Source of the DNA: Planotetraspora kaengkrachanensis
GTDB lineage: Bacteria; Actinomycetota; Actinomycetes; Streptosporangiales; Streptosporangiaceae
Direction: 5' to 3'
DNA length: 64,000 nt
NCBI RefSeq assembly: GCF_016862895.1
Contig: NZ_BONV01000017.1
Location: 124,001 to 188,000 of the forward strand
The translations under genes were made by a program, and so were the position numbers. Shown here piece after piece: positions 14,516 through 22,744 of the stretch. How positions within the stretch are numbered: the stretch's first letter is position 1; each line of letters opens with the position of its first letter. Under the pieces are notes generated by a model, which saw only the letters and a program-made list of their open reading frames with translations, was not told the origin of the DNA and did no database searches.

Positions 14516-16801
14516 GTGCACGGCGCTCAGCGATCCACAGCGGTCCGTCATCTCATCCTCATCGCGGCCGCGCTCCTCGCGCTGCTGGCCGTGTCGGGAA
14601 CAGGCGTGGCCTCCGCGTCGTCCGGCCCCCTCCCCGGCTCCGCGTTCTCGGCCTCGTCCGCCGGCGCTCTGGCCGCCTCCGCGCCCTCCGCCCTGCCCGG
14701 CTCCGGACTCGCCGCCTCGTCCGCCGGTTCACCCGCGGGTCGCGTGGTCCTGATCGGCGTCCCCGGGCTGCGGTGGGACGACCTCGACCCGGCGCGCACG
14801 CCCAATCTGTGGGCCCTGGCAGGAAAGGGTGGCGTGGCGTCGCTCTCGACGAGGACGGTCCCGCCTGAGGGCCTGCCGGTGACCTGCCCGGCCGGCGGCT
14901 GGCTGACCGTGTCCGCGGGCCAGCGGGCGGGCACAGGCGGCGACTCGTGCACCGCTGCGCCCGCCCCCGCCGTGGCGCCGGACGGCTCGGCGGCCGTGCC
15001 CGGCTGGGCCGCTCTGGTCGCGTTGCAACGGGCGGGCTCCTACAAGGCCGACATCGGCCTGCTCGGTCAGACGATCGTCGACGCGGGCGGCCGCGTCGCC
15101 GCGATCGGGCCGGGAGCGGCTCTGGCGGCTGCCGACAAGTCCGGCAAGATCCAGAAATATGCCGCTACTCCGGACGAGCTGCCGGACCTGACGCCGTACA
15201 CCGTCGTGTTCGCGGAGGCGGGAGAGATCGCCCAGGTCTGGAACCAGGAGGGGACGGCCCGGCAGAGCGCGGCGGCCGCCGCCGACCGGACGGTCGGCTC
15301 GATCCTGGCTCGTGTGCCGGCCGGCGCCACGGTGCTCGTCGCGGGCCTGTCCGACTCCGGTGCCACCGCCCATCTGCACGTGGCCATGGCCACCGGCCCC
15401 GCCGGGTCCGCGGGCTCGGATCCGGCGGCCGGGCCGTACGGGCCGGGGTGGCTGACCGCGTCCTCCACCCGACAGGACGCGCTGGTCACCCTCACCGACC
15501 TGACCGCGACCGTCACCCACGTCCTCGGGATCCCCAGCCCCGAGGGCGTCGTGGGCCGCCCGTGGCAGCCGGACGGCCCGTCCGACGGGACGGCGAAGGA
15601 ATCCGTCGCCCGCCTCGCGGACGCCGATCTCGCCAGCCAGGTGCTCAAGCAGGTGCGAGAGCCGTTCTTCCTGGTCCTCGTCGTCGCGCAACTGCTCTTC
15701 TACGCACTCGCCGCCGTCGTGATGCGGCGGTACCGGCGGATGTTCGTGCCCGCGCAGATCGTCGCGGTGGTCAGCGCCGCCGTCCCGGTGTCGACCTTCC
15801 TGGCGCAACTCGTGCCGTGGTGGAGCCTGGCCCACCCGATGGCCGCGTTGTGCGGCACGATCCTGGTCATGGCCGGGGCGATCGCCGGGGTGGCGTTCGC
15901 CGGGCCGTGGCGCGGGCACGTGCTCGGGCCGCTCACCGTGGTCGCAGGAGTGAGCTCGCTCGCCCTGCTGATCGACGTGATGACCGGGTCGAGGCTCCAG
16001 GTGAACGCGGTGACGGGATACGAGCCGGTCACCGGCGGCCGGTTCTACGGGTTCGGGAACATGGCCTTCGCCATCTACTCGACCGGCACGATCCTGCTGC
16101 TCGCCGGAATCAGCCAGGCCCTTCGCCGCTGGAAGCGCTGGGCGCTGGTCCTGTGCCTGGCCTACGGACTACTGGCGATCTTCGCGGACGGCTGGCCGGG
16201 CTGGGGGGCCGACTTCGGCGGCGTGCCGTCGTTCATCCTCGGGTTCGCCGTGTTCCTGTTGCTGATCACCGGTCGTCGTGTGTCCGTCATCAGGCTAGCG
16301 GTGATCGGCGCGGGCGGAGTCGTGGCCGTGGGGCTGATCGCCGTCGCCGACTGGATGCGGCCTGCCGACCAGAGGACCCACCTCGGCACGTTCGTCCAGC
16401 AGGTCGTCGACGGCGAAGGCGGATCGGTCGTCGGCCGCAAGCTCGGGGCGATGCTGCACACCCTGGGGAACCTGCCCCTGACCCTGCTCTCGCTGGTGGC
16501 CCTGGCCTTCTTGTTCCTCGTGCTCTCCCGGCCGTCCACGTGGGGGGCGCCCGCGCTCAGTCAGGCGTACGGCCACGCGCCCGCGCTGCGCGCCGGTCTC
16601 CTCGGCACGCTCACCGCGGCCCTGGCCGGATTCCTCCTGAACGACTCCGGCGTCGCCATCCCGGCGATGGCCCTGACCGTGGCCGTCCCACTCACGCTGG
16701 CCGCGTCCGTCCGCGCGCTCCAGCTCTCCACGCCCACCACGCCAGACCGATCGTCAGCGCCAGCAGACACCATGGCACGACCTGCGAACGGACCACGGTG
16801 A
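14516..16801 (+). CDS. Large membrane protein with exported phosphatase-like N-domain
   Basis: A 761-residue protein. After a signal sequence (VRHLILIAAALLALLAVSG) comes an exported domain of roughly 330 residues starting VVLIGVPGLRWDDLDPARTPNLWALAGKGG. This resembles the opening of alkaline-phosphatase-superfamily enzymes, although the metal-ligand set is not clearly complete. The C-terminal half has about nine membrane helices with a conserved NAVTGYEPVTGGRFYGFGNMAFAIY loop. The GTG at 14516 has GAGGAG ten bases upstream; the open frame extends 76 codons further without a better site. Its last 110 bases overlap the converging glycosyltransferase gene. Probably envelope-related; specific function unknown. 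Confidence 0.75.
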   Translation: MHGAQRSTAVRHLILIAAALLALLAVSGTGVASASSGPLPGSAFSASSAGALAASAPSALPGSGLAASSAGSPAGRVVLIGVPGLRWDDLDPARTPNLWALAGKGGVASLSTRTVPPEGLPVTCPAGGWLTVSAGQRAGTGGDSCTAAPAPAVAPDGSAAVPGWAALVALQRAGSYKADIGLLGQTIVDAGGRVAAIGPGAALAAADKSGKIQKYAATPDELPDLTPYTVVFAEAGEIAQVWNQEGTARQSAAAAADRTVGSILARVPAGATVLVAGLSDSGATAHLHVAMATGPAGSAGSDPAAGPYGPGWLTASSTRQDALVTLTDLTATVTHVLGIPSPEGVVGRPWQPDGPSDGTAKESVARLADADLASQVLKQVREPFFLVLVVAQLLFYALAAVVMRRYRRMFVPAQIVAVVSAAVPVSTFLAQLVPWWSLAHPMAALCGTILVMAGAIAGVAFAGPWRGHVLGPLTVVAGVSSLALLIDVMTGSRLQVNAVTGYEPVTGGRFYGFGNMAFAIYSTGTILLLAGISQALRRWKRWALVLCLAYGLLAIFADGWPGWGADFGGVPSFILGFAVFLLLITGRRVSVIRLAVIGAGGVVAVGLIAVADWMRPADQRTHLGTFVQQVVDGEGGSVVGRKLGAMLHTLGNLPLTLLSLVALAFLFLVLSRPSTWGAPALSQAYGHAPALRAGLLGTLTAALAGFLLNDSGVAIPAMALTVAVPLTLAASVRALQLSTPTTPDRSSAPADTMARPANGPR

Positions 16802-18101
16802 CCAGCCAGCCCAGGCCGTCCGGCTGATCCATCTGGCGCGCCGGCAGATAGCCGAGGGACAACACGGCCAGCCGTACGACGAGGAAGCCGTCGAGGGCCG
16901 GGCAGACCACCATCGCGAGCAGGGCGAAGGCCAGCCCGTCGTACCACGGCAGCACGTAGGGCGTGGCGAACAGCCAGGCCACGCCTAAGGCGAGGGCCAC
17001 CCGCGGGGCGTCGAGCTCGCCGTCCCGCCGGAAGGCCCTGATCAACAGGAAGGCCAGCGCCGCGAGCAGCGCGTAGGACGCGAGCTGGATCCACACACGA
17101 TAGGCACCCGGACCGATGAGTGACTGGGCCGCGTGCTGGACGAGCTTCCAGGGAGTCGCGAGCGACAACGACTGGCTGGCGTTGCGGACCTGGTCGAGCG
17201 AGTCGGGGCCCGCGAGCAGGTAGGCCGCGAGCACGGTCAGCGTCGCCGACCCCGCGACCAGCGCCAGCTTCCGCGGCGACCTCCGCAGCTCCCACGCGGG
17301 ACCTAAGGCGACCAGGCCGACGGTGACCTTCACGGCTATCCCGAGGCCGAGCAGGACGCCCCTGCCCCGGCCGACGACGAGGGCGGCGATCACGAAGGCG
17401 ATCGCGAGGGTGTCGAGGTGCATGCCCGCCGCGAGGTGGTAGACGAGCAGCGGGTTGACCGTCCACAACAGGGCCGCGCGACGCCGCCGTACGGGATCAT
17501 GCCGGGTGAACCGGTGCAGAAGCAGTGCGGTCGCGACGAAAGCGGCGGCGTTCGCGAGTTCCATGACGAACACCGTCAACCGGACCGAATCGCCGCCGAT
17601 GAGGGAGGCGAGCGCCTGCACGGCCGTCGCGACCGGCCCGTAGACGCTGGGCGTGTTCCGCCATTCCTCGACCCCCCCGATGACGGGGTCGGCGGGCAGA
17701 TCAGCTGGAACGGTGACATAGGGGTTGTGGCCGAGCGTGACCATGCGCCCGTACGCCGCGTAGTTGAGATGGTCGGCGGAACCCGACGGAGGCAGGAAGG
17801 CGAGGACGACGGCGACGAGGCAGCCCGTGAGCAGGAGCCACCGGGCGTCGGGCATCCGCTCCGCGTGCCGGAGGCCGACCGCCAGGGCGACCGCGCCCAG
17901 GACGACCGCGGCGGCCGCCATGGCGATGACGAGACGGCCGTCCGGCATGACGCCGAGTGAGAAGGGCGGCTGCCACGGACGTCCCGGCAGTGGGGGGACC
18001 ATCGCGGACGGCCCGAGGAGACTGATGATGATCGTCAGCAGAATCGAAGCCGCCCCAGCCCCAGCCACACCGGCGAACCAGACCCCCCTGCGCGTGATCA
18101 T
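16692..18101 (-). CDS. Membrane glycosyltransferase, GT87/MptB-like mannosyltransferase
   Basis: A 469-residue polytopic membrane protein with about a dozen helices. DHLNYAAYGRMVTLGHNPYV followed by VYGPVATAVQALASLI is the acidic loop of polyprenol-phosphomannose-dependent alpha-mannosyltransferases. NPLLVYHLAAGMHLDTLAIAFVIAALV and GLGIAVKVTVGLVALGPAW are later family segments. The ATG at 18101 is inside the first unit of a 53-bp repeat array (its ATGATCACG is the box read backwards), and the frame extends to a second repeat at 18158. No clear ribosome binding site is present. Its 3' end overlaps the converging gene by 110 bp. Confidence 0.85.
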   Translation of the reverse strand: MITRRGVWFAGVAGAGAASILLTIIISLLGPSAMVPPLPGRPWQPPFSLGVMPDGRLVIAMAAAAVVLGAVALAVGLRHAERMPDARWLLLTGCLVAVVLAFLPPSGSADHLNYAAYGRMVTLGHNPYVTVPADLPADPVIGGVEEWRNTPSVYGPVATAVQALASLIGGDSVRLTVFVMELANAAAFVATALLLHRFTRHDPVRRRRAALLWTVNPLLVYHLAAGMHLDTLAIAFVIAALVVGRGRGVLLGLGIAVKVTVGLVALGPAWELRRSPRKLALVAGSATLTVLAAYLLAGPDSLDQVRNASQSLSLATPWKLVQHAAQSLIGPGAYRVWIQLASYALLAALAFLLIRAFRRDGELDAPRVALALGVAWLFATPYVLPWYDGLAFALLAMVVCPALDGFLVVRLAVLSLGYLPARQMDQPDGLGWLVTVVRSQVVPWCLLALTIGLAWWAWRAGARGRTRPA

Positions 18102-18564
18102 GCACAGGTTCCGGGATGTGCCGCGCCACCAGCCACTTCCCTTGGCGTGATCATGCACAGATTCGGGGACGGCATGCCTGACCTGCCCTTTCGTCGACCG
18201 TGATCATGCGCACGTTCTTCTGCAACCTCGCCGACCTGGCCTGATGGCGTTTGTGATCTGGCAATCGACGATGCGCGACCAACGGAACCCCTCGGGGACG
18301 CCCCGCGCGATCACACACGACGTTTCCGCCGGCGAGGGCAAGACTAGGAGAACCACGCGCATGATCACGACAGCCGTCACGGCTGATGGACGCGGATGCG
18401 CACGAACCCGTGCATGATCACGATTGGCGTCGGGCCTGGTCAACACGCACATCGGCGAATCCGTGCATGATTACGGCCGGTGGAGGCGCAGGTCAGGCAG
18501 GCCATCGCCGAATCTGTGCATGATCACGCCGAGGGGGGCGGTTGAACCCCTGTGAATGATCACA
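18093..18564. repeat. 53-bp periodic repeat array 1 (convergent half-arrays)
   Basis: Ten boxes related to CGTGATCATGCACAGGTTCG. Rightward boxes start at 18093, 18146, 18199, 18252 and 18306 (the last two degraded but in register). Leftward boxes end at 18369, 18422, 18475, 18528 and 18564. Distances between TGATCA centres are 53, 53, 53, 54, 54, 53, 53, 53 and 36. In the better units a second box, GACCTG or a near match, occupies positions 35-40, while positions 21-34 and 41-53 vary. CAGGT in box 1 can pair with ACCTG in box 2. The array fills the space between two minus-strand glycosyltransferase genes and overlaps the start of the downstream one. Confidence 0.9.
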
Positions 18565-18565
18565 C

Positions 18566-19330
18566 TCAGGGGCGGGGGCGGAGGCCGCCCTTGCCTTGCT
18601 TGATGGCTTCCATGCCATGCTTGATCGCCGGTTCGCGGGCCGCGAGCGCCCGCCCGACGTCGCGCAACTGCTTCGCGCGGTGCATCTGGGCCCGCCAGTC
18701 GGTTCCCGTCGCGCGGTGGGCCATGTCGACCTCCACCTCGACCACCCGGAACCTCTTGGTGAGCAGGTCGATGGTCATTCCGGTCTCGACGCCGAACCCG
18801 TGGGCGAGCGGCTGAGCCGCCTCGAACGCCGCCCTGGTCAGGCACCGCTGGCCGTTCAGCGGCTGGGCGGGCTCCCATCCGGTCAGCCGCTTGATCCCGT
18901 CGCGGGCGAGCCGTACGACCATGCCGTGTCCCCCGAGCTTCACCCGGGTGGCGAACACCGCGATGGTCATGTCGGCCGTGCCTGCCCGCACCGGAGTGAT
19001 CAGCGCGTGGGCCGCGGAGGCGGTCTCTCCCAGGTCCGCGTCGAGGAAGAGCAGGTTCCGCGGCACGTCCTCGTCGAGGAGCTGCACGGCCTCCGCCCCG
19101 CTCTCCATCGCGGCGGCCTTGCCCTTGTTCCTGCTGTGCCGTACGACCCGGGCGCCGGCCGCCCTGGCCACCCGGCCGGTCTCGTCGGCCGAACCGTCGT
19201 CGACGACGACCACGAGATCCACACCGGGCAGCTTCAGGGCGGCGGTCACGGTGGCGCCGATCCGGTCGGCCTCGTCCTTGGCCGGGATGACGACCGCGGT
19301 GTCCGGCGTCGGCACCACCAGTTCACTCAT
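18566..19330 (-). CDS. GT2-type glycosyltransferase (GpgS-like)
   Basis: A 254-residue cytoplasmic GT-A enzyme. The nucleotide-sugar site begins VVIPAKDEADRIGATV with VVVVDDGSADET, the metal motif is LLFLDADLGET, and a later conserved segment is PLNGQRCLTRAAFEAA. The layout resembles glucosyl-3-phosphoglycerate synthases and dolichyl-phosphate-type GT2 enzymes but without the C-terminal extension of true GpgS, so the acceptor is uncertain. The stop codon at 18566 touches repeat array 1. The STAS gene is six bases upstream on the same strand, so the two are probably co-transcribed. Confidence 0.85.
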   Translation of the reverse strand: MSELVVPTPDTAVVIPAKDEADRIGATVTAALKLPGVDLVVVVDDGSADETGRVARAAGARVVRHSRNKGKAAAMESGAEAVQLLDEDVPRNLLFLDADLGETASAAHALITPVRAGTADMTIAVFATRVKLGGHGMVVRLARDGIKRLTGWEPAQPLNGQRCLTRAAFEAAQPLAHGFGVETGMTIDLLTKRFRVVEVEVDMAHRATGTDWRAQMHRAKQLRDVGRALAAREPAIKHGMEAIKQGKGGLRPRP

Positions 19331-20389: not shown

Positions 20390-21499
20390 CAGCGGCAGCC
20401 GGATCTCGAAGCGGCAGCCGAGTCCCTCGTTGACCACGCCGATCACGCCCTGGTGGGCCTCCACGATTCCGCGGGCGATGGCCAGCCCGAGCCCGGCGCC
20501 GCCGTCCGGCCCGGGAGTGCGGGCGGCCTCGCCGCGGAAGGCCACGTCGAAGACCCGCGACAGGTCGTCCTCGGGGATCCCGCCGCAGCAGTCGAGGACC
20601 GACAGGCTCGCCATGTCGCCCTCGGCGACCGCCCGGACGGTGACGGTCCCGTCCGCGGGCGTGTGACGGATCGCGTTAACCACCAGGTTGCGTACGGCAC
20701 GGCTGAGCTCACCGGCGTCCGCGTCGACAGGCAGGACGGCGTCGGCCTCGCCCGACAGGCGGACGCGCTTGGCCCGGGCGAGGGGCTCCACTCCCGCCAG
20801 GGCGTCGGCGACCAGGTCGCCGAGGCCCACCTTTCTTCGGGAGAGCCGCAGCGTGCCCGCGTGGATGCGGGACAGTTCGAAGAGGTCGTCGACCATGCCG
20901 GAAAGGCGGTCCACCTCGAGCCTGATCTGCGTGTGGTAGCGCTTGACGGTGTCGGGGTCGTCGGCGACGCCGTCCTCGAGCGCCTCGGCCATCGCGCGCA
21001 TCCCGGCGAGCGGCGTGCGGAGGTCGTGGCTCACCCAGGCGACCAGCTCGCGCCGGGCGCTCTCCAGGTTCTGCTCGCGTTCGCGGCCCAGACGCAGCCG
21101 TTCGTACGCCTGGGTCAGAGCCAGGCCGATGGTGTCGAGTTCGGCGGGCAGCGGGCCCTCGGGAGGGGCGAACCGGCCGGAGGGGGACACGTCGTCGAGT
21201 GCGGCGACCAGCCGCCTGCTGGCGAGCACCACCCGGCGCGCGTTGATGAGCGCGACGCCCAGCCCCACGAGCCCTCCGATGGCCACGACGGTGAGCACGA
21301 TGTTCTTGGCCCGGCCATCGATGATCATCGCCAAGGTGATCGCGACCACGCCGGCGAGCGTCGCCGAGACGGTGACCACGGCCACGACCGCGAGCATCAC
21401 GCCGATGGAACGCCGGCGGAGCACCCGCAGCAGGGCCAGCCCCAGACCTGCGATGATCAGGCCCAGCCCGGCGCAAACGGCGACGATCTGGAGGATCAT
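20381..21499 (-). CDS. Sensor histidine kinase
   Basis: A 372-residue membrane histidine kinase. Three hydrophobic helices occupy the first 90 residues with almost no extracellular loop, so it probably senses a membrane or cytoplasmic cue. The phosphoacceptor is in AWVSHDLRTPLAGM (His about 158). The HATPase domain has the N box NLVVNAIRHTP, D/G1 box VLDCCGGIPEDD (a cysteine pair replaces the usual DNG residues) and G2 box GGAGLGLAIARGIV. Its start overlaps the stop of the response regulator gene by four bases, so the pair is co-translated. The altered G1 sequence is worth noting. Confidence 0.92.
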   Translation of the reverse strand: MILQIVAVCAGLGLIIAGLGLALLRVLRRRSIGVMLAVVAVVTVSATLAGVVAITLAMIIDGRAKNIVLTVVAIGGLVGLGVALINARRVVLASRRLVAALDDVSPSGRFAPPEGPLPAELDTIGLALTQAYERLRLGREREQNLESARRELVAWVSHDLRTPLAGMRAMAEALEDGVADDPDTVKRYHTQIRLEVDRLSGMVDDLFELSRIHAGTLRLSRRKVGLGDLVADALAGVEPLARAKRVRLSGEADAVLPVDADAGELSRAVRNLVVNAIRHTPADGTVTVRAVAEGDMASLSVLDCCGGIPEDDLSRVFDVAFRGEAARTPGPDGGAGLGLAIARGIVEAHQGVIGVVNEGLGCRFEIRLPLSA

Positions 21500-22194
21500 G
21501 TCAGGGGCTCGTATCGATAGCCGACCCCCCAGACGGTGACGATGCGCCGGGGATCGGTCGGATCGGGCTCGATCTTCTCCCTGAGCCTGCGCACATGGAC
21601 GGTCACCGTCGACGTGTCACCGAAGGACCAGCCCCAGACCTGGTCGAGCAGGGCCATGCGGCTGAACGCCTGGCGGGGATTGCGCAGCAGGTAGGCGAGC
21701 AGGTCGAACTCCCTGGCGGTCAGAACGATCTCCTCGCCGCCCACTGTGACCTCGTGCGCGCCCACGTCGACGACGAGGTCCCCGTCGCGCAACACGCCGG
21801 TGCCGGTCGGGACCAGCGCGCCGCGGGCGCGTCTCAGCACCGACTGCACCCGCAGGGCCAGTTCCCGTGGGCTGAAGGGCTTGGTGACGTAGTCGTCCGC
21901 CCCCGTCTCGAGGCCCACGACCCGGTCGATCTCCTCGCCCAGCGCGGTCAGCATGATGACCGGCACCGGCCAGCGTTCCCTGAGCTTCCTGCAGACCTGC
22001 AGACCGTCCATCTTCGGCAACATCAGGTCGAGGACGAGGAGGTCGGGCGGATCGGCCAGCGCCCGGCGGAGCGCCTCGGCGCCGTCGCCCACGCATTCGA
22101 CCGTGTGGCCGTCGCGCTCCAGGTAGCGGGCGACGACCTCTGCCACGGTCGGGTCGTCGTCGACGACCAGGACACGTGCGGGATTGCCAGTCAT
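21496..22194 (-). CDS. Response regulator, OmpR/PhoB family
   Basis: A 232-residue DNA-binding response regulator. The receiver has acidic pocket VVDDDPT (residues 10-15), phosphoacceptor D56 in LLVLDLMLPKMDG, and the conserved VTKPFSPRELALRV lysine. The C-terminal winged helix ends RLREKIEPDPTDPRRIVTVWGVGYRYEPL, typical of the PhoB/RegX3 class. It is the first gene of a two-gene operon with the histidine kinase. The 53-bp repeat array 2 begins about 100 bp upstream of its start codon, so array and promoter probably overlap or adjoin. Confidence 0.95.
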   Translation of the reverse strand: MTGNPARVLVVDDDPTVAEVVARYLERDGHTVECVGDGAEALRRALADPPDLLVLDLMLPKMDGLQVCRKLRERWPVPVIMLTALGEEIDRVVGLETGADDYVTKPFSPRELALRVQSVLRRARGALVPTGTGVLRDGDLVVDVGAHEVTVGGEEIVLTAREFDLLAYLLRNPRQAFSRMALLDQVWGWSFGDTSTVTVHVRRLREKIEPDPTDPRRIVTVWGVGYRYEPLT

Positions 22195-22295: not shown

Positions 22296-22744
22296 CGTGA
22301 TCATGCACAGGTTCGGGGACGGCGAAGCTGACCTGCGCACACTCCTGCCGTGATCATGCACAGGTTCGGCGTTGTCGGCCATGGCCTGCGCTTTCACTTT
22401 TCGTGATCATGCACACGTTCGGCGGCAGGCCGCCCGACCTGCACCTTCCCATTTTTTGATCATGCACAGGTTCGAGCCGACGCGCATCGACCTAGCCGTC
22501 CACCCTGCGTGATCATGCACACAGAGTGGTCTCGATACCGACGACCCCGTACGGCTCCCGCCTGCCCATCACACCCGCCATGCGGGGTCGCTGCATGATC
22601 ACGGATGGCATGCGCCCAGGCCGGCGGCCCCTGGTCCGAAGGCGCGCATGATCACGACCTGCCAATACGCACGTCAAACGCCAAGTCTCCGAACTTGTGC
22701 ATGATCACACCACCAGAGGGCCCGCGAGCTTGTGCATGATCACG
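22296..22744. repeat. 53-bp periodic repeat array 2 (convergent half-arrays)
   Basis: Same design as array 1. Rightward boxes start at 22296, 22349, 22402, 22455 and 22508, every interval exactly 53, and a barely recognisable sixth lies in register at 22561. Leftward boxes end at 22603, 22656, 22709 and 22744 (intervals 53, 53 and 35). GACCTG or a close variant (GGCCTG, GACCTA, GACGTG) recurs at positions 35-40 of most units in both orientations. The variable parts differ from each other and from array 1, so the boxes look conserved by selection rather than by recent duplication. It fills the intergenic region between the response regulator gene and a small membrane-protein gene. Confidence 0.92.

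Follow-up and report, generated by a model that had tools for sequence, protein, structure and literature searches.

Phased and Oriented Box Arrays at Gene Ends in the Genus Planotetraspora and Their Possible Role in Ending Transcription

Introduction

Classical rut sites are untranslated stretches past the stop codon that are C-rich and G-poor, contain few hairpins and act in one orientation. The box arrays of Planotetraspora described here are also oriented post-stop sequences, C-rich, G-poor and with few hairpins, but they have a conserved 20-nt box, a fixed pitch and dialects, all three of which are foreign to rut sites. MIRUs of Mycobacterium tuberculosis are tandem intergenic repeats with ATGA-type overlaps. 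The arrays resemble them in being tandem and intergenic, in ATGA-type overlaps and in the location of some at stop codons, and differ from them in sequence, convergent arms, diverged fillers and little sign of coding. REP/BIME repeats occur at gene ends and in inverted pairs, together with RAYT transposases; the arrays share the gene ends and the inverted pairs, but their box is not a hairpin. DNA uptake sequences reportedly form dialects among lineages of Neisseriaceae. Like them, the box is short, numbers hundreds of copies and takes another form throughout the genome of a related lineage; phased arrays of uptake sequences are not known to us. Eukaryotic polar roadblock terminators (Sal box/TTF-I, Reb1) are oriented protein sites past gene ends, and the arrays are similar to them as rows of oriented sites after genes. 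To our knowledge, sequence-specific, factor-dependent termination with a fixed pitch has not been described in bacteria.

The nearest described kind is the STAR elements of Staphylococcus, with the 14-bp motif T(G/A/T)TGTTG(G/T)GGCCC(C/A) (PMC3532100). In the excerpts of that source available to us, STAR elements are, like the arrays, interspersed intergenic direct repeats with locus-specific spacers, expansion and contraction, and no assigned function; their spacers of at least 40 bp and tandem repeats of about 50 nt are comparable to the pitch of 53 found here. The arrays share with this class a short conserved motif, longer locus-specific spacers and many intergenic loci. The motif itself is different, with box consensus CGTGATCATGCACAGGTTCG instead of the 14-bp STAR motif, and the same excerpts describe no convergent arms, exact pitch, species-wide motif switch or gene-end rule for STAR elements. 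STAR loci differ among staphylococcal species, whereas many Planotetraspora arrays are orthologous within the genus (PMC3532100). No earlier description of such arrays was found among the best matches listed in a literature search with thin coverage of subscription journals.

Arrays of the Window

The window is the whole 64-kb stretch of DNA analysed, from the Planotetraspora genome G000. Two arrays are located in it (Table 1). A plain pattern scan allowing at most three mismatches gave 12 box matches in the window, six in each array, against a shuffle mean of 0.02. Array 1 lies between two glycosyltransferase genes, as the initial annotation had stated; the left one is GT87/MptB-like, the right one GT2, and both are encoded on the minus strand. 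It consists of three rightward and five leftward boxes with spacings of 53 and 53, then 151, then 53, 53, 53 and 36. Ten copies in an unbroken series of 53 and 54 had been counted there. Eight of them pass the score, while the two central ones are degenerate GATC remnants; thus, the pitch of 53 within the arms and the outer step of 36 were recovered, and the central part of the series is a single gap of 151. The box at 18350 scores below the plain pattern scan and passes the profile score. The left boxes point rightward and the right ones leftward, in agreement with the annotation, and the GACCTG motif that it placed at unit positions 35–40 (1-based) corresponds to positions 34–39 counted from 0 in the position consensus. 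The likely ATG of the GT87/MptB-like gene (CAT at 18099–18101 on the plus strand, a predicted start) is inside the first box of array 1.

Array 2, like the hundreds of boxes elsewhere in the genome, had been overlooked. It is a rare case of an array in a divergent gap, with the response regulator on the left and a short membrane-protein-like frame on the plus strand on the right. The same divergent location, beside promoters, was found again in the congeners G001, G003, and G004; in the congener G002 this array is mostly lost.

Table 1. Arrays, second motifs and neighbouring genes in the window (positions of the window).
Feature	Position	Strand	Remarks
Array 1, rightward arm	18093..18251	+	3 boxes: 18093–18112, 18146–18165, 18199–18218; consensus CGTGATCATGCACAGGTTCG; pitch 53
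GACCTG second motif, unit 2	18180..18185	+	Unit positions 34–39; sequence and position consensus
GACCTG second motif, unit 3	18233..18238	+	Sequence and position consensus
Array 1, centre between arms	18219..18349	.	Degenerate GATC remnants; centre length varies among loci
Array 1, leftward arm	18350..18528	-	4 boxes: 18350–18369, 18403–18422, 18456–18475, 18509–18528; pitch 53
Second motif of the unit beginning at 18528	18489..18494	-	CAGGTC on plus strand is GACCTG on minus strand
Array 1, outermost leftward box	18545..18564	-	Off-pitch, spacing 36
Array 2, rightward arm	22296..22527	+	Boxes at 22296, 22349, 22402, 22455, 22508 (22508 by profile scan only)
Array 2, leftward arm	22584..22744	-	Boxes at 22584, 22637, 22690, 22725 (22584 and 22637 by profile scan only)
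GT87/MptB-like glycosyltransferase	16692..18101	-	Left of array 1
GT2-family glycosyltransferase	18566..19330	-	3' end adjoins leftward arm of array 1
OmpR-type response regulator	21496..22194	-	5' side towards array 2

Architecture of the Arrays

Spacing and orientation were counted in 114 arrays (43 from G000, 17 from G001 and 54 from loci of P. mira/silvatica and P. phitsanulokensis). Orthologues are kept in this sample, from which exact duplicates alone were removed, and many of its loci were picked for exact boxes; in it, the spacing of same-strand boxes is 53 in 519 of 570 cases, 52 in 19 and 54 in 6. The unit is composed of the box at positions 0–19, filler, GACCTGC at 34–40 and further filler with C at 46 and 48, after which the next box follows. 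Both orientations are present in 68 of the 114 arrays and a single one in 46. Where neighbouring boxes lie on opposite strands, 69 pairs converge and two diverge, one of the latter, at offset 10, being a shadow of the palindromic core. The centre between the arms is variable; at 13 of the 69 centres, the innermost boxes overlap by three bases (spacing 17). The proposal that all boxes face one side of the helix is left unproven, as the inter-arm spacings have no significant phase at 10.5 bp (p 0.26 and 0.54). A phase of 11.0 reached p 0.015 solely with the repeated spacing of 17 counted, in one of ten tests.

Filler identity is 0.393 between adjacent units of one arm, 0.333 between opposite arms and 0.315 between different arrays. 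Apart from that of adjacent units of one arm, the identity is near background, which gives no sign of recent copying from locus to locus. A long hairpin between the arms was rejected, since the fillers of opposite arms are scarcely more alike than those of different arrays and mainly the boxes match. RNA hairpins of CAGGT with ACCTG, also considered in the initial annotation, found no support either: the two sides do not covary (with 8 to 175 units per genome, z ranges from -1.5 to 2.0 for each of the five pairs in all five genomes), and G001 has lost two of these pairs in almost every one of 26 units.

Conservation Between Species

In nine listings of orthologous units with G000 or G001, box positions 4–10 and 17–18 are 94–100% identical, fillers at 20–32 are 37–59% identical and flanks are about 79–95% identical (90 of 135 rows listed). 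Units without gaps number 16/19, 44/44, 38/39, 61/64, 21/23, 23/23, 18/20, 18/18, and 53/58 in these listings, and 19/24 and 99/105 in the closer comparisons among P. mira, P. silvatica and P. phitsanulokensis; the units counted are those whose orthologous box has at least 14 of 20 identities, which favours conserved units. Because much of the filler is substituted while its length changes little, the pitch of 53 is probably under selection; the selection on boxes and spacing that had been suggested from the window sequence is thus supported. Orthologous arrays carry fillers specific to their locus.

Some gaps are shrunken in G002: that of array 2 measures 23 bases instead of 449, that at C1:126024 125 instead of 302, and that behind the gene of a Rho paralog (Rho2, see below) 61 instead of 354. 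At the arrays lost there, outer boxes or nothing are left, and in one case the convergent genes are now fewer than 20 bases apart. The first array of the window is kept in G002. These deletions indicate that arrays are dispensable at some loci, though Rho2 is intact in G002.

Distribution in the Genus

The G000 genome is 8.77 Mb long and has 663 box matches with at most three mismatches, while a control with the reversed pattern gave one. The congeners G001 to G004 have 744, 259, 717, and 735 matches, respectively. In the profile scan, G002 was searched with the profile of G003, its own being poor. From 0 to 10 matches per genome were obtained in 55 others searched from the family, order and class. 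The motif is genome-wide yet phased almost everywhere, and the scatter without phasing that the initial annotation had named as the mark of an ordinary dispersed repeat was not encountered. Thirteen multi-box arrays lie within the initial 400 kb of contig C1; extrapolated simply, this amounts to about 285 per genome. Exact double boxes at pitch 53 were detected in 58 stretches of a collection of named genomes, all of them from P. mira, P. silvatica or P. phitsanulokensis (the last with one stretch), in a scan that possibly did not include the records of the window's own genome. The exact box was not found in viral contigs. The arrays are best explained as a genus-wide family of gene-end elements.

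Box Dialects

With at most one mismatch, the CACAGG form of the box was counted 291, 6, 96, 372, and 393 times in G000 to G004, respectively, and the CAGAAG form 14, 698, 6, 36, and 42 times. The box form is thus switched genome-wide in one species, G001, at orthologous arrays, with the direction of the change unpolarised. In orthologous units of G000 and G001, position 12 is never identical, neither in the 16 of one listing nor in the 21 of the reverse one, and about one unit in ten has an identical position 14. Fillers of the arrays that differ in dialect are still alignable between the species. The G001 orthologue of array 1 has nine boxes, of which the six outer ones carry CAGAAG and the three innermost do not. 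As the places are the same and the fillers alignable, the change was parallel at fixed sites, with some inner boxes spared, and not a replacement of arrays. This pattern points to a sequence-specific trans-acting factor that would read the boxes. The inner boxes of G001 without CAGAAG look as if they were under less or other constraint.

Position Relative to Genes

Gene ends were taken from a home-made codon-composition caller whose calls contain errors. The gaps holding the 114 arrays are convergent in 45 cases, tandem in 55 and divergent in 14. A rough census of stretches of G000, G001, G003, and G004 counted 69 convergent, 200 tandem, and 110 divergent gaps of at least 100 bases. In gaps of these classes, of whatever length, it placed 18, 14, and 4 arrays, respectively; these 36 include orthologues, the four divergent ones are a single orthologous locus, and the window array is wrongly classed there as convergent. 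Single arrays in tandem gaps are sense in 20 cases and antisense in 6 (two-sided binomial, about 0.009). For the 111 junctions that fall between -60 and 250, the first sense box begins at a median of 16 nt past the stop. The first box itself supplies the stop codon, with its TGA, in 24 of all 117 junctions, and several of these 24 are orthologous pairs. Arrays thus have either convergent arms or a single one, most of them set in at a stop codon or shortly past it, and divergent gaps hold fewer of them. Of the 24 proteins terminated by the TGA of a box, 19 end in alanine.

Two or three sense boxes separate thrC and thrB, upstream of the canonical rho, in G000, G001, G003, and G004; in G002 this gap has one weak box match on the other strand. 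The G000 proteins match TIGR00260 (thrC) and TIGR00191 (thrB) above cut-off. At another locus an array comes between two genes that, in a different genus, have only 3 bases between them. From the split of thrC and thrB and from this pair, it follows that not every array is an absolute terminator. The arrays could be either partial terminators, or insulators with a promoter of their own, or something else.

Sequence Context at Array Ends

Hairpins were measured as the best 44-nt minimum free energy (MFE) within up to 120 nt past the stop, with MFE of -25 or lower taken as strong. Ninety array ends, random among the eligible ones, were set against 80 convergent and the first 90 collected tandem array-free ends. 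The strong GC-rich hairpin past the stop that characterizes intrinsic terminators was found at 3% of the array ends, compared with 55% of convergent and 41% of tandem array-free ends. The z-score was -2 or lower at 10%, 45%, and 31% of them, respectively. The G+C content is 0.63 at array ends versus 0.72 and 0.68 at the others, and a lower G+C content alone weakens hairpins, for which z-scores correct in part. A cruder version of the folding, over 140 nt, agrees in direction. In its first 80 nt, however, array ends too are modestly above their shuffles, with -16.3 versus -14.0, compared with -24.8 versus -20.5 and -21.9 versus -18.3 at array-free ends.

The 25 nt before the outermost box have a C content of 0.50 and a G content of 0.20 (181 arms), while stop regions without arrays have 0.34 and 0.33 (469 windows). 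The C-over-G skew of fillers is 0.10–0.11, versus -0.001 at array-free ends (98 regions). Presumably transcribed, array ends are therefore C-rich, G-poor and with few strong hairpins, as is expected of a Rho-dependent terminator. Four array loci were compared with four other genera, in which the gaps of adjacent pairs are 3–93 bases long and one pair was read as overlapping. For one of these loci, folds of the whole gap are -37 and -36 kcal/mol in two of the four genera (values without shuffle control), and for another -46 in one genus; the remaining gaps fold weakly, are tiny or extend over thousands of bases.

The Rho Paralog

A divergent Rho paralog besides the canonical Rho is present in all five Planotetraspora species. 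It is a short form with NF041509 (paralog_Rho2) as the best NCBIfam match, 492 bits, which is below the model cut-off of 628. Boxes at pitch 53 lie upstream of its gene in all five species. In each of G002, G003, and G004, the sole exact CAGAAG box of the genome is in this upstream array, which consists of three sense boxes. Boxes are located also behind the gene, two only in G002, and an array behind it is found in G000 and G001 as well. Rho has been reported to define mRNA 3' ends in M. tuberculosis. Rho2 is the best candidate for the reader of the boxes or for a partner of the reader; since sense arrays often precede genes (the 114 include 20 single ones), the link is suggestive, not proven, and could be chance.

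Second Rho-like matches were obtained in 12 of 55 other genomes, one of them below cut-off. No array with the Planotetraspora box was seen beside the Rho paralogs of other genera at 13 loci examined, and the closest paralog compared (G036, 75% identical) has no upstream array. One of the 13 loci, that of G024, holds the only box match of its genome. In G006, an unrelated short repeat is situated behind the Rho paralog, and in G035 imperfect GC-rich repeats about 31–35 bases apart are situated upstream of it.

Discussion

The arrays are here considered factor-dependent, orientation-specific elements for ending transcription, by termination or insulation, with Rho2 as candidate factor or partner; this reading, drawn from sequence comparison, is given a probability of roughly 0.47. 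In each arm, the 20-bp boxes follow one another exactly 53 bp apart, mostly along the direction of transcription and behind a C-rich, G-poor tract. A sequence-specific trans-acting factor would read the box, and the likeliest job of the arrays would be to replace hairpin terminators by factor-dependent termination or insulation. Arms that converge would then serve transcription arriving from both sides. Rho2 or a partner of it could be the reader, and the array upstream of rho2 may be transcribed as its leader. The exact pitch favours recognition of DNA, while C-richness and sense orientation favour RNA. Against termination stand the 6 antisense arrays among 26 single tandem ones and the 14 of 114 arrays in divergent gaps. 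A more elaborate version, in which Rho2 or its partner reads the arrays within a dedicated termination system that has supplanted hairpin terminators, controls its own gene via the leader array and has co-evolved with its sites, about 700 boxes having been rewritten in one species, is put forward quite tentatively.

If the termination reading is true, related species use two dialects of a natural terminator code, the recognition factor could be found by cross-species swaps, and the short Rho paralogs found in actinomycetes would be offered a role. Whatever the function, several hundred boxes that differ alike between two species at orthologous sites make an unusually clean case of site–factor co-evolution or molecular drive.

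Other explanations account for parts of the same data. The boxes could be a platform on DNA, bound cooperatively and on one helix face by a nucleoid, insulator or chromosome-organising protein, with gene ends chosen to spare promoters. A sequence-specific nucleoprotein assembly at the arrays is possible, and a pitch of 53 in 519 of 570 spacings (about five turns of 10.5 bp), the near-palindromic core of the box, the overlapping head-to-head junction of spacing 17 shared by 13 of 69 centres and the species-wide box switch all agree with it. Such a platform does not predict the 20:6 sense bias, the excess of C over G in the tract or the low number of hairpins, and its arms would not be expected to lack a significant 10.5-bp phase between them; as a full account it is doubtful. 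Rather unlikely is molecular drive, that is, a repeat family spread or converted by a mobile or DNA-transfer process and tolerated at gene ends without host function. The genome-wide dialect switch does recall the dialects of uptake sequences, the arrays are extra DNA relative to other genera at some of the loci compared, and units have been lost in G002. Arrays orthologous across species with locus-specific fillers, filler identity between arrays near background (0.315, no recent copying seen) and the orientation of arrays relative to genes all speak against drive. So does the distribution of the Y1 (RAYT) transposase: PF01797 had no match in G000, G002, G003, and G004, and four in G001, namely one open piece, one with internal stops and two adjacent short pieces. 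With no match to this transposase in four of five genomes, a REP/RAYT system is disfavoured too.

Very improbable is a MIRU-like chain of short peptides with ATGA start-stop overlaps, for which 53 equals 3 x 17 + 2. The ATGA or GTGA of the box lets an 18-codon frame link neighbouring units on both strands, and this frame is open in 0.915 of 520 units in sense and 0.842 in antisense, versus 0.846 (sd 0.014) and 0.786 (sd 0.017), respectively, in shuffles. The excess is small, though, and another antisense frame has a similar one (0.810 versus 0.767). Pitches of 50 and 56, which would keep the frame, are absent among the 570 spacings, where 52 and 54 occur, and the most variable box positions (13–15) do not track third codon positions. 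That the arrays are CRISPR is hardly credible, even with repeats of 20 nt and spacers of 33 nt. Matches to Cas1 (PF01867) are absent from all five genomes, while the control was positive in 9 of 14. The spacers share a fixed motif at 34–39 and are orthologous between species, and the boxes occur by the hundred and at gene ends. CRISPR counts of 4, 15, 3, 18, and 64 are given for the five Planotetraspora species in the excerpts of a published source available to us, and on their face favour CRISPR (PMC11431748); these are probably miscalled box arrays. Phased intergenic triples in other genera numbered 0–2 per sampled set of 18–234 kb, none of the Planotetraspora kind. In a related genus (G036, locus position about 7700), an intergenic repeat with a period of 59 was observed, which is possibly a true CRISPR or another array.
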